The notes below the pieces were generated by a model. It had not been told where the DNA came from. It saw only the letters and a list, made by a program, of their open reading frames with translations, and made no database searches. A program made the position numbers and the translations under genes. DNA of 25,788 bases, from positions 1 to 25,788 of IMG/VR virus record IMGVR_UViG_3300031951_011277; one strand, given 5' to 3'. The DNA comes from a virus. Position 1 is the first letter of the stretch. Each line of letters starts with the position of its first letter. Positions 16,712-23,884 of the stretch are shown piece by piece.

Positions 16712-16870
16712 ATGGCAATAATTCATCCAATAGATTTTTGGGTATACCTAATGATCAACTGTTGGTTTTTTCCACACACACTTATAAAACACACAAATGA
16801 ACGAACTAATTTATGTCCTACTAACAACTCATCTAACAATCATCGCAGTAACACTATATCTACATCGTAG
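16712..16870 (+). CDS. Possible small protein overlapping the desaturase start
   Basis: The frame encodes 52 residues (MAIIHPIDFWVYLMINCWFF, then a polar Asn/Thr/Ser-rich tail). The first part is hydrophobic enough for one membrane helix. The last 74 bases overlap the desaturase gene in another frame, and the polar tail there looks like shadow translation. There is no ribosome site. It could act only as a coupling leader for the desaturase, which also lacks a clear site, or it may not be a gene. Confidence 0.25.
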   Translation: MAIIHPIDFWVYLMINCWFFPHTLIKHTNERTNLCPTNNSSNNHRSNTISTS

Positions 16871-17501
16871 TCAAACTCATCTAGGCGTTACATTTCATCC
16901 AGTAGTAAATCACTTTTTTCGTTTTTGGTTATGGTTAACTACAGGTATGGTCACCAAACAATGGGTAGCCATTCATCGTAAACACCATGGTATGACCGAC
17001 CAAAAAGGTGATCCACATTCACCACAACTATTTGGTATATGGAAAGTTTTATTTGGTGGAGCATTTTTATATAACACCGCCAGTAAAGATACTTCAATGG
17101 TCAATGCGTTTGGTAGAGGAACACCAGATGATTGGATGGAAAAAAATGTATATAGCAAACATAGTAGATTAGGAATTACTTTGTTATTGCTTATAAATTT
17201 ACTTTGTTTTTCTTGGTGGGGTTTATTGATTTGGGGTATTCAAATGTTGTGGATACCTTTGTTAGCTGCAGGTGTAATCAATGGAATTGGTCATTATTGG
17301 GGGTATAGAAATGTCGAAACAAAAGAATCATCTAGAAATATTTTCCCTATTGGTATTATTATTGGTGGCGAAGAGCTTCATAATAATCACCATACTTCTC
17401 CTGGTTCTGCCAAGCTTAGTAGTAAATGGTTTGAAATAGATATTGGTTGGTTTTACATCAAAGTATTAGAGAATCTCAAACTGGCCACACTCAAGCATTA
17501 A
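16797..17501 (+). CDS. Fatty acid desaturase, membrane di-iron type
   Basis: This 234-residue integral membrane enzyme has all three histidine boxes: HRSQTH at 23-28, HRKHH at 60-64 and HNNHH at 195-199, plus H166 before the last box. They bind two irons. The form (short N-terminus, HRxxTH then WVAIHRKHH...D..GDPHSP) is that of the delta-9 acyl-CoA / acyl-lipid desaturase group, which puts a double bond into an acyl chain using oxygen and an electron donor. Hydrophobic segments lie at about 5-20, 36-52 and 125-165. Desaturase genes occur in marine cyanophages. A role in membrane fluidity during infection is inferred. The last 11 bases overlap the convergent Fe-S carrier gene. Confidence 0.92.
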
Positions 17502-17814
17502 AAGAAGAACCACAACCACAGGTGGATTTAGCATTTGGATTGCTAATGACAAATTGTGAATTAAATTTTTCTTCTCTATAATCCAGTGTTGCACCTTGTA
17601 GATATTGAGAAGATATCACATCAACTACTATTTTAATTCCTTCACTCTCAATCACAAAATCATCTTCTGCAATTTCTTCTTCAAATGTGAATCCGTATTG
17701 ATAACCAGAACAACCTCCACCTTGCACAAACATCCGCAATGCACCATTAGGTAGTTTTTCTTCTACCAGTAAATCACGAACCTTGTTGATTGCACTATCG
17801 GTTACTTGAATCAT
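17491..17814 (-). CDS. A-type iron-sulfur carrier, ErpA/IscA/SufA family
   Basis: The 107-residue protein carries the three conserved cysteines of A-type carriers: C35 in GGGCSGYQY, and C99 and C101 in the C-terminal TCGCGSSF. The usual length is 105-120. The family takes a [2Fe-2S] or [4Fe-4S] cluster from the scaffold and passes it to apo-enzymes. I do not pick between IscA, SufA and ErpA. It is the last gene of a small operon behind an initiator-like tRNA and two tiny genes, overlapping the one before by 20 bases. The facing desaturase is a di-iron enzyme, not an Fe-S protein; its electron donor (ferredoxin) would be a client (inference). Confidence 0.93.
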
Positions 17815-18084: not shown

Positions 18085-18097
18085 ATTATCTCCTTGT

Positions 18098-18172
18098 TGG
18101 TTGCGGGGGAAGGAATCGAACCTACGGCCCCTGGATTATGAGTCCAATGCTCTACCTCTGAGCTACCCCGCT
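18098..18172 (-). tRNA. tRNA with CAU anticodon and initiator-like acceptor stem (fMet-like)
   Basis: The 75-base gene folds as a full cloverleaf. Acceptor pairs 2-7 are GCGGGG with CCCCGC, while 1 and 72 are A and A and cannot pair. The D stem is GCTC/GAGC. The anticodon loop is CTCATAA (anticodon CAT) on TTGGA/TCCAG. The T arm is GTAGG-TTCGATT-CCTTC with one T-T mismatch. CCA is encoded. The last 12 bases (CCCCCGCAACCA) equal the end of E. coli initiator tRNA as I remember it. Missing 1:72 pairing and G-C pairs at 29:41 and 30:40 are initiator features, but 31:39 is A-U and the 11:24 pair is C-G as in elongators. A weak TATAAT (18181-18176) lies just upstream. Confidence 0.88.
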
Positions 18173-18266: not shown

Positions 18267-18980
18267 CTACCACTCACCTGACCAATGTTTTATATTGGCT
18301 TCAGCATAAAATTCTTGCTTTAATTTTTTCCAATCCATGATACCATCACCTCTATAAACTATCGTATCGTGTGGTGGATGTTCTTTGTACGTTTTAATAA
18401 ACGGAATTTGTTCCATATATTTACGCATCTCAGCAAACTTCTCAACACCAGGATTTGTATTAATCATTTCACCAAATAATACGGTTGTTACTGCATGCAT
18501 ATAAGTTTGTGGACCTAAAAAGAAAACATTCTTATGTCCTTCATATCGCCTCTGTAATATTAATTCAATAGTTTTTGCTTGAATTGGATTTTTAGGTTCC
18601 GTCAACATAAAATCTTGTGAAAAATCCCAATCCAAACAAGTTGGTAATACACATTTTATATTATCGGTTATAATTTTTGATAAAGGAATGTTATAGAAAC
18701 GGTCAATATCCATATAAAGACCACCTTCGTTGTATAACTTAAACAGCCTCCACAAATCTGTTTTTTCTACTATGTGTATATCTTTAATTAAATTGTAATC
18801 TCTTTTGTTTAATGTGTTTCTGAGATACTCATCAACATCACTATCATCATATACTGTAACTGTCCAGTCCGGATTTAAATCAATTAGATTTCGTAAACCA
18901 TTGAGAATAAGTGGTGATTTACTATCAACCACATCTTTAGTTTTCCAAGCAACGTGTGCAATTTTTGGTATGGAACTCAT
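18267..18980 (-). CDS. DXD glycosyltransferase (Gly_transf_sug / capsular type)
   Basis: The protein (237 residues from ATG at 18980) begins MSSIPKIAHVAWKTKDV, then NPDWTVTVYDD. At about 73-93 comes EKTDLWRLFKLYNEGGLYMD followed by ID, the hallmark of the DXD sugar-binding region in the mannosyltransferase/OCH1-like group (D91 and D93). This family transfers a sugar from a nucleotide donor to polysaccharide or LPS acceptors. An upstream frame extension to 19067 exists but would run into the opposite J-domain gene, so I reject it. The start lies only 13 bases from the divergent J-domain start. I see no ribosome site, so translation may start from a leader inside the opposite gene or be leaderless. 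Confidence 0.85.
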   Translation of the reverse strand: MSSIPKIAHVAWKTKDVVDSKSPLILNGLRNLIDLNPDWTVTVYDDSDVDEYLRNTLNKRDYNLIKDIHIVEKTDLWRLFKLYNEGGLYMDIDRFYNIPLSKIITDNIKCVLPTCLDWDFSQDFMLTEPKNPIQAKTIELILQRRYEGHKNVFFLGPQTYMHAVTTVLFGEMINTNPGVEKFAEMRKYMEQIPFIKTYKEHPPHDTIVYRGDGIMDWKKLKQEFYAEANIKHWSGEW

Positions 18981-18988
18981 TATAAATA
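18981..18988 (+). promoter_or_regulatory. T4-type late promoter box TATAAATA before the J-domain gene
   Basis: An exact match to the T4 late promoter -10 box, placed in the 13-base gap between the two divergent genes and pointing to the J-domain gene. Transcription would start about 6 bases after the box, at or next to the ATG at 18994, which predicts a leaderless or nearly leaderless message. An 8-base AT-only match is expected a few times by chance in this window; the position in the only gap makes it more credible. Confidence 0.5.
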
Positions 18989-18993
18989 TATGT

Positions 18994-19599
18994 ATGAATA
19001 AAAATCTATATGATATCTTAGGCGTTTCTAAAACTGCAACAGTTGAAGAAATTAAAGCCAAGTACAAATCTCTTGCTCAACAACACCATCCAGATAAAGG
19101 TGGTGATCCTGAGATATTTAAAGAAATAAAAAACGCCTATGAAGTTCTAAGTGATCCTGTTAATAGAAAAAAATATGACACTACCGGTCATTATGACTTT
19201 GGTACAAGTTTGCGTGACCAAGCTTTAGAACAACTCAGTCGTTTATTTTTTAATTTACTTCCAAATATTAATCCCGATCTTGATGATTTAATCCTTATCA
19301 TGAAGAATGAAAGTAGGAAAGAAAAACAAAATATTAATAATAACATTAATGCCTGCAATGGTTACATTTTTAGATTAAAAAAAATAATTAATAAGATTAA
19401 AAAGAAAAACGATCAAGGCGAAAATCTATTAAAAATGTTTGCCGAAACTCAATTAAAGAATCATGAAAACGAATTACAAAATTTTATACGACAAATACAA
19501 ATTGTTGATATTGTAATCGAAATACTTGAAGATTATCAATATGGTGATGTTACAACTTTAATTGAAAATTTTATGGATACTTCTACTCAAAACAATTAG
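18994..19599 (+). CDS. J-domain (DnaJ-like) co-chaperone
   Basis: I start at the ATG at 18994 (201 residues), where MNKNLYDILGVSKTATVEEI opens a standard J domain. HPD is at 32-34 (QHHPDKGG), then FKEIKNAYEVLSDPVNRKKY. The J domain (about 1-62) recruits and stimulates an Hsp70. There is no Gly/Phe linker or zinc finger; instead about 130 residues of Asn/Lys-rich helical, partly coiled-coil sequence follow, so it is a class C type protein with a specific client or site. The partner Hsp70 would be the host DnaK. It is an isolated plus-strand gene; its 3' end abuts the opposite-strand tRNA-Thr. Confidence 0.9.
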   Translation: MNKNLYDILGVSKTATVEEIKAKYKSLAQQHHPDKGGDPEIFKEIKNAYEVLSDPVNRKKYDTTGHYDFGTSLRDQALEQLSRLFFNLLPNINPDLDDLILIMKNESRKEKQNINNNINACNGYIFRLKKIINKIKKKNDQGENLLKMFAETQLKNHENELQNFIRQIQIVDIVIEILEDYQYGDVTTLIENFMDTSTQNN

Positions 19600-19673
19600 T
19601 GGTGCCCCTTGATAGAATCGAACTAACAATTCAAGATTACAAATCTAGCGTTATACCATTTAACTAAAGGGGC
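19600..19673 (-). tRNA. tRNA-Thr (UGU)
   Basis: A 74-base cloverleaf. The acceptor is GCCCCTT with AAGGGGC, 7 pairs without mismatch. The D arm is GTTA...TAAC. The anticodon stem is CTAGA/TCTTG (one T-T mismatch) with loop TTTGTAA, anticodon TGT. The T arm is GTTAG-TTCGATT-CTATC (one T-T mismatch). ACCA is encoded. It reads ACA codons, which AT-rich phage genes use often. It starts 7 bases after the upstream glycosyltransferase stop, so it is co-transcribed, and its CCA touches the J-domain stop codon on the other strand. Confidence 0.93.
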
Positions 19674-22632: not shown

Positions 22633-22707
22633 TGGTGGGCCGTGAAAGAGTCGAACTTTCTTCAACCGGTTATGAGCCGGACGCATCTACCAATATGCTA
22701 ACAGCCC
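22633..22707 (-). tRNA. tRNA-Met (CAU), elongator-like
   Basis: A 75-base cloverleaf with encoded CCA. The acceptor is GGGCTGT with ACGGCCC, 7 pairs including one G-U, and 1:72 is paired, unlike the other CAU tRNA of this window. The D arm is GCAT/ATGC. The anticodon stem is TCCGG/CCGGT with loop CTCATAA, anticodon CAT. The T arm is GAAAG-TTCGACT-CTTTC. It could be Met or, if C34 is changed to lysidine, Ile(AUA). It is transcribed with the small genes upstream (8 bases after the 57-residue gene stop). Confidence 0.92.
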
Positions 22708-23360: not shown

Positions 23361-23423
23361 TTACCGACTTTTTGGATAATTCAACTGTTCCCATTCCTCA
23401 TCGGTTACGGGCCACCAGTTCAT
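23361..23423 (-). CDS. 20-residue peptide coupled to Hsp20
   Basis: The frame overlaps the Hsp20 stop (TAATG) and encodes MNWWPVTDEEWEQLNYPKSR. It is Trp-rich and acidic, with a DEEWEQL helix. Overlap of the reinitiation type and the start directly at the Hsp20 stop suggest translation, but at this length chance cannot be excluded. Function is unknown. Confidence 0.45.
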   Translation of the reverse strand: MNWWPVTDEEWEQLNYPKSR

Positions 23424-23884
23424 TATACACTCTTTTCTTTAATGGCAATCTTTTTAATGGTATCTTGAGCCTGCACAAGATTTTCTAACCATACACGCAA
23501 CATACCATTCATCATTTCAGCTTGACCAATTTCAATCTTGTCAGCTAATGTAAATGAACGTGAGAAGTTACGGTTAGCGATTCCCTTAAAGAGAAAATTT
23601 TCTTCTTCTTTAAGTTCTTCTTCTTTTGCAGAGCCTTTGATGACCAATTTATTACCTTCAAGAGTTACTTCAATATCAGATTTGGCGAAACCAGCAACTG
23701 CCATTTCAATGACATACTTGTTTTTGCTTACTTGTTTGATATTGTATGGGGGATACGATGGTACATTCTTAGTTACATTTTTGGTAACTTCTTCGATGTC
23801 TTTGAAGAATTTATCGTAACCAACTGTGAATGGATCCAGCGTTTTGTGAAAGTCAAATAGACTTGGTAATAGACTTGTAGTCAT
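23423..23884 (-). CDS. hsp20: Small heat shock protein Hsp20 (IbpA-like)
   Basis: The 153-residue protein has the alpha-crystallin domain at about 45-140: YPPYNIKQVSKNKYVIEMAV, the conserved AGFxKxDIEV segment (64-73), GNKLVIKG, and FxRSFTLADKI. It binds unfolding proteins without ATP. Hsp20 is a core gene of marine T4-like phages, possibly a scaffold or folding aid in virion assembly. AAGGAG lies about 9 bases before the ATG. A late box TATAAATA (23949-23956) and a 5' hairpin precede it. Together with the late box before the J-domain gene, this suggests that both chaperones are made with the virion proteins. Confidence 0.95.
   Translation of the reverse strand: MTTSLLPSLFDFHKTLDPFTVGYDKFFKDIEEVTKNVTKNVPSYPPYNIKQVSKNKYVIEMAVAGFAKSDIEVTLEGNKLVIKGSAKEEELKEEENFLFKGIANRNFSRSFTLADKIEIGQAEMMNGMLRVWLENLVQAQDTIKKIAIKEKSV

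Follow-up and report, generated by a model that had tools for sequence, protein, structure and literature searches.

The tRNA(CAU) gene at 18172..18098 of the window, by which the whole 25.8-kb stretch of an IMG/VR virus record analyzed here is meant, probably encodes a phage initiator-type tRNA built on the scaffold of an elongator tRNA-Met, a reading that, judged from sequence, carries a probability of roughly 0.7. The replication module of the window is T4-like, with a DnaB-type helicase, UvsX and a family B polymerase that shares ~50% identity with cyanomyovirus polymerases. Host-type genes are also present, coding for a fatty acid desaturase (16797-17501), an Fe-S cluster biosynthesis protein (17491-17814), a DnaJ-domain protein (18805-19599) and Hsp20 (23423-23884). 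No exact 40-nt match to the tRNA was found in GTDB genomes, and a host or prophage source was consequently not found. The tRNA reads AGCGGGG UA GCUC AGAGGUA GAGC A UUGGA CUCAUAA UCCAG GGGCC GUAGG UUCGAUU CCUUC CCCCGCA A CCA (Table 1). The open first pair is followed by G2:C71, C3:G70, G4:C69 and G5:C68, and the discriminator base is A73. Both G29:C41 and G30:C40 are present in the anticodon stem, so that the sole missing initiator G:C pair is 31:39, which is A:U. The original prediction for this gene had listed the unpaired A1 and A72, G29:C41, G30:C40, A31:U39 and C11:G24, all of which are confirmed in the sequence; it overlooked the U50:U64 mismatch in the T stem. Another 5′ end, which would restore a 1:72 pair, was ruled out, as base -1 is not conserved (T in 40, C in 4 and A in 2 of the 46 identical copies described below).

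Table 1. Coordinates of the tRNA(CAU) gene, its parts and its surroundings in the window.
Feature	Position	Strand	Basis or remark
tRNA(CAU), elongator-type body with initiator-type A1:A72 mismatch (class I), CCA encoded	18098..18172	(-)	ARAGORN, Rfam 63.9 bits
A1, unpaired with A72 (18102)	18172..18172	(-)	sequence
D stem 10-13 (GCUC), giving C11:G24, elongator type	18160..18163	(-)	sequence
Anticodon stem 5′ side 27-31 (UUGGA), with G29 and G30; partners U39, C40, C41	18143..18147	(-)	sequence
T arm with U50:U64 mismatch	18109..18125	(-)	sequence
Shine-Dalgarno AAGGAG of the following gene	18090..18095	(-)	2 nt past the CCA of tRNA(CAU) 18172..18098
Second tRNA(CAU), Ile2 (lysidine)-like, GGGCUGU acceptor, C4:G69	22633..22707	(-)	profile
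tRNA-Thr(UGU)	19600..19673	(-)	ARAGORN and Rfam; context

The last 12 bases, CCCCCGCAACCA, are indeed those of the E. coli initiator, as had been claimed; 5395 of the 5426 E. coli genomes contain the initiator sequence. In many bacterial elongator tRNA-Met genes, however, the same 2-7:66-71 stem occurs with the end CCCCCGCUACCA, base 72 being the sole difference, which makes the 12-base match weaker evidence than it appears. As the acceptor stem is equally that of an elongator, the phage tRNA is set apart chiefly by its broken first pair. A fusion with a host initiator was ruled out, since acceptor stem and body are both those of bacterial elongator tRNA-Met. The proposed “hybrid” is nonetheless correct, as an initiator-type 1:72 on an elongator body, and of the functions considered a part in initiation has the best support; the GC-rich acceptor stem no longer contributes to it, being also found in bacterial elongator tRNA-Met.

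A position profile, which in leave-one-out recovery assigned 35/35 initiators, 70/73 elongators and 28/28 Ile2 tRNAs, gave the phage tRNA scores of -53.8 for elongator Met, -88.6 for initiator and -92.8 for Ile2. The elongator votes came from bases 9, 11, 12, 23, 24, 26, 31 and 39, and the initiator vote from base 72, with bases 27, 51 and 63 in support. Most of the elongator references had been retrieved with the hybrid's own backbone pattern; against the ten that had not, the score was -63.5, still above that of the initiator. The elongator references are paired at 1:72 in 73/73 cases, but pairing was partly a selection criterion. The profile thus puts the whole body with elongator tRNA-Met, with 1:72 broken, in place of the intermediate form that had been suggested. 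This overall profile stands against the initiator reading, as does the absence of R11:Y24 and G31:C39. The best isotype score is that of elongator Met and elongators with the same acceptor stem exist, either of which the original prediction had held to speak against it, but the pair that differs, 1:72, is the principal initiator determinant and is kept across phages. The other tRNA(CAU) of the window, which had been taken for a normal elongator-like one, best matches Ile2 (lysidine) tRNAs, with scores of -94.2 for Ile2, -119.3 to -139.4 for elongator and -158.5 for initiator.

Conservation among phages indicates that the mismatch is maintained. In IMG/VR, 77 stretches matched a pattern in which base 1 and the entire 3′ half were unconstrained, and the identical 75-nt tRNA is present in 46 IMG/VR contigs, the window included. 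Pairwise identity between the flanks of these copies (100 nt per side) has medians of 0.70 and 0.59, and the flanks form at least 29 clusters at 95% flank identity. Other tRNAs of the same contigs vary, Thr-UGU having 10 forms among 26. An independent sample of 80 loci, chosen by DNA polymerase similarity, contained the exact 75-nt tRNA in 7 loci, along with further mismatched CAU tRNAs that have A:A, C:A or U:U at 1:72 and the D stems GCUC, GUGA, GUAA or GUUC. The many identical copies in separate flank clusters, together with the retention of the mismatch in the A:A, C:A and U:U lineages, argue that the mismatch tRNA did not arise by chance. Among the unique tRNAs of the polymerase relatives with G2:C71 and C3:G70 (class I), 1:72 is mismatched in 20/20, G29:C41 is found in 18/20 and G30:C40 in 20/20. 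The 50:64 pair is non-Watson-Crick in 13/20 class I tRNAs, compared with 1/14 other CAU tRNAs of the same phages (p = 0.001); a general viral sample shows no such excess (6/37 mismatched vs 11/57).

On the polymerase tree there are at least seven changes in the mismatch letters, and the set contains none of these tRNAs in paired form; only mismatched tRNAs were labeled on the tree, and tRNA genes may move between phages. The exact 75-nt copy recurs on distant polymerase branches and near relatives bear other tRNA bodies; its recurrence on distant branches makes horizontal spread of one allele likely as well, and it is doubtful that purifying selection alone caused the perfect identity. At two pairs of loci (L091/L094 and L106/L145), close polymerase relatives have very different initiator-like tRNAs at the same place, as if the tRNA gene had been swapped between phages.

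A comparison with bacteria distinguishes the phage form more sharply. Among the matches to the same backbone pattern listed for GTDB genomes, 1:72 is paired in 110 of the 111 tRNAs parsed, mostly as G:U or G:C; in IMG/VR, the same pattern mostly finds it mismatched. The GTDB matches listed come from Alphaproteobacteria, Acidobacteria, Chloroflexi, Actinobacteria and Myxococcales and represent elongator tRNA-Met. The unpaired exception among them, a G1:A72 tRNA of Jiella endophytica, lies within Mu-like portal, F, protease and Gp36 genes and thus in a prophage. This hybrid tRNA(CAU) sits in the head-gene block (L207, 6404-6479), and the same tRNA occurs in a viral contig (L046). When bacterial CAU tRNAs were sampled with a pattern that takes no account of 1:72 and 11:24, R11:Y24 accompanied 35 of 36 mismatched tRNAs and Y11:R24 accompanied 46 of 47 paired ones, the sole mismatched tRNA without R11:Y24 again being that of the J. 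endophytica prophage. Unique mismatched CAU tRNAs of viruses have Y11:R24 in about 29/57 (Fisher p = 3e-7), made up of 19/20 from the polymerase relatives and 10/37 from the general sample, two samples that were unselected for 1:72 and 11:24 and in which a sequence or two is possibly counted twice. The mismatch is therefore coupled to R11:Y24 in bacteria but uncoupled from it in viruses, marking the hybrid as a phage trait; in the sequences compared, phages have it often and bacterial chromosomes hardly ever. Without exception, the 57 mismatched viral CAU tRNAs from these two samples have G30:C40, which their paired counterparts show in 31/57 and 13/14 cases. Of the 94 unique viral CAU tRNAs in the general sample (L274-L392), 26 combine a 1:72 mismatch with R11:Y24 and look like ordinary phage initiators.

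The setting of the gene is also constant. Wherever a mismatched copy and the polymerase gene occur at one locus (52 copies), the tRNA is on the polymerase strand, 0.4-9.6 kb upstream of the gene. An AAGGAG-type site follows the CCA after 1-4 nt in 46/46 identical copies, so that the mRNA released by 3′ processing of the tRNA would have a very short leader. Contigs G134, G135 and G145 (L013, L019, L066), which are 32-55 kb long, have the mismatch tRNA as their sole detected tRNA gene, and in contig L087 it is accompanied by an Ile2-like CAU tRNA and a third one of elongator type. Both arrangements are consistent with a role other than the decoding of internal AUG or AUA, and the company of the two other CAU tRNAs in L087 suggests that this role is a separate one. 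Of 37 contigs checked, 24 carry a gene for peptide deformylase (PF01327), the enzyme that removes the formyl group, and so do 16 of the 17 contigs above 50 kb in the polymerase group. This gene shares the strand of the tRNA in these contigs (L513-L517 and related ones, G130-G162), the measured distances place it about 9-12 kb further upstream, and it would fall just beyond the window. Given this distance, and its occurrence in L098 and L149, where no class I tRNA lies close to the polymerase gene, peptide deformylase was rejected as a partner gene of the tRNA and is regarded as a trait of the phage group.

Formylation, exclusion from the A site and resistance to Pth depend chiefly on the 1:72 mismatch, assisted by 2:71, 3:70 and 11:24; elongators become initiators when this mismatch is combined with the G:C pairs (PMC7949028, PMC11231383). 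A1339 and G1338 of the 30S subunit read G30-C40 and G29-C41, not 31:39 (PMC11497404), and the affinity for EF-Tu is set by pairs 49:65, 50:64 and 51:63 (PMC11231383). The phage tRNA retains the decisive set, namely the 1:72 mismatch, 2:71, 3:70, 29:41 and 30:40. Through its CAU anticodon it would be charged by the host MetRS, and its open 1:72 should allow methionyl-tRNA formyltransferase to formylate it. Mismatch and formyl group would then shield it from EF-Tu and peptidyl-tRNA hydrolase, and the weak 50:64 pair may reduce its affinity for EF-Tu further. With the 30S head gripping G29:C41 and G30:C40, the tRNA is predicted to enter the P site directly, where it would supplement or replace the host initiator tRNA during infection. 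The absence of R11:Y24, which should reduce formylation to some extent, and of G31:C39 presumably has some cost in efficiency, for which high expression could compensate. A boost of initiation during infection, the role first put forward for this gene, is plausible from its sequence. It counts against the initiator reading that loss of the 1:72 pair is a small step, as bacterial elongator relatives often have a weak G1:U72.

That same weak pair invites another reading, in which the gene encodes an ordinary elongator tRNA-Met for internal AUG and the open 1:72 is the tolerated decay of an ancestral bacterial G1:U72. The profile and the body are those of elongator Met, and G1:U72 is frequent in the bacterial relatives, consistent with this notion. 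Drift, however, should re-pair the position (6/16 letter combinations), yet none of the 20 unique class I tRNAs is paired while A:A, C:A and U:U alternate. The acceptor stem beyond 1:72 is fully paired in the relatives, with compensatory changes, and the same class I tRNAs retain G29:C41 and G30:C40 and have a weakened 50:64, all of which renders simple decay unlikely. It is quite improbable that the tRNA is instead a toxin-resistant replacement initiator, the odd body of which was selected to evade attackers of initiator tRNA such as VapC-type nucleases and AtaT-type acetylases. The anticodon loop CUCAUAA is the same as in bacterial initiators and thus has no loop mutation, and many other phages encode initiators of the normal R11:Y24 build. 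In its favor, tRNA-fMet is the target of VapC and AtaT, and AtaT discriminates against elongator tRNA-Met (PMC7180214), while phage tRNAs have been proposed to stand in for those cleaved by host defences (PMC10264068); such enzymes might overlook the elongator D arm and 31:39.

Two further possibilities take the gene out of methionine decoding or out of translation. A non-translating RNA, acting as a decoy for formyltransferase, synthetase or a toxin, or left over as a processing signal for the next gene, would agree with the Shine-Dalgarno site that invariably lies 1-4 nt past the CCA, but all tRNA elements are intact and the anticodon arm is conserved, neither of which a processing signal needs, making this reading very improbable. 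The chance that the gene encodes a tRNA-Ile2, with C34 converted to lysidine so as to read AUA, is next to negligible: apart from the CAU anticodon nothing points to it, C4:G69 and C5:G68 occur in 28/28 bacterial Ile2 references where the phage tRNA has G4:C69 and G5:C68, the Ile2 profile score is the worst of the three, and an Ile2-like tRNA is already encoded in the window.

Read as an initiator-type tRNA, the gene suggests that phages have done in nature what was done in the laboratory, breaking 1:72 in the presence of G:C pairs while retaining both pairs read by the 30S head. The hybrids would then offer naturally occurring minimal initiators for testing what features a cell needs. They also suggest that an initiation tRNA of one's own is a widespread phage strategy, hidden by the plain annotation “tRNA-Met”. 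This bears on the statement, made of phages of a VapC-bearing host, that phages generally avoid tRNA-fMet (PMC10264068), with which the ordinary-looking viral initiators described above contrast as well. A tentative extension, which we consider possible but hardly likely, is that phages repeatedly built initiators from elongator tRNA-Met and that this class dropped R11:Y24 and G31:C39 to evade initiator-specific toxins or start-site checks of the host while ribosomal entry was kept. No description of the elongator-bodied initiator class or of its phage-specificity was found in the open-licence literature, which is weak evidence of novelty; phage initiator tRNAs as such are already known, from T5 and cyanophages.

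With bacterial initiator tRNA-fMet, the phage tRNA shares the 1:72 mismatch, G2:C71, C3:G70, G4:C69, G30:C40 and the loop CUCAUAA. G2:C71, C3:G70 and G4:C69 are found in 35/35 bacterial initiators, but 2:71 and 3:70 occur in elongator tRNA-Met too and are not discriminating. R11:Y24 and G31:C39, each present in 35/35 bacterial initiators, are missing from the phage tRNA, and its base 9, 12:23 and 26 are likewise of elongator type. In the same bacterial sample, 14/35 initiators (many of them proteobacterial) lack a G:C pair at 29:41, and 16/35 (again many proteobacterial) have U50:G64. Bacterial elongator tRNA-Met with the GCGGGG acceptor shares the 2-7:66-71 stem, the D arm GCUCAG-GGUAGAGC, A26 and often A:U at 31:39. 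It differs in its paired 1:72 (the 110/111 parsed among the matches listed), where the phage tRNA has A:A and, in addition, U50:U64.

Among phages, the tRNA-fMet of T5 (AY543070, 32428-32505, annotated “initiator tRNA fMet”) is likewise a phage gene with a CAU anticodon, a 1:72 mismatch (U:U in T5), G2:C71, C3:G70, G4:C69, G30:C40, an incomplete set of three G:C pairs and a non-Watson-Crick 50:64 (U:G in T5). It has, however, the initiator D stem with A11:U24, and A29:U41, U31:G39 and U73, in place of C11:G24, G29:C41, A31:U39 and A73. A T5 formylmethionine tRNA was reported in 1975 according to the title of Chen et al. as cited in PMC4810235, and cyanophages are said there to encode tRNA-fMet. 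Closer in kind are tRNAs of isolated phages that combine a 1:72 mismatch with an elongator-type D stem, in Rhizobium phages V1VFA-S and RHph_X66 (C1:A72, C11:G24), Stenotrophomonas phage Philippe (C1:A72, U11:A24) and Xanthomonas virus PB119 (A1:A72); these belong to other phage families and hosts, have other anticodon and T stems, and are annotated as plain tRNA-Met. The conversion logic is the same as that of the engineered elongator-to-initiator tRNAs, in which a 1:72 mismatch and G:C pairs were introduced into tRNA-Met and tRNA-Gln (PMC7949028, PMC11231383), but the phage tRNA is natural and has two G:C pairs instead of three.
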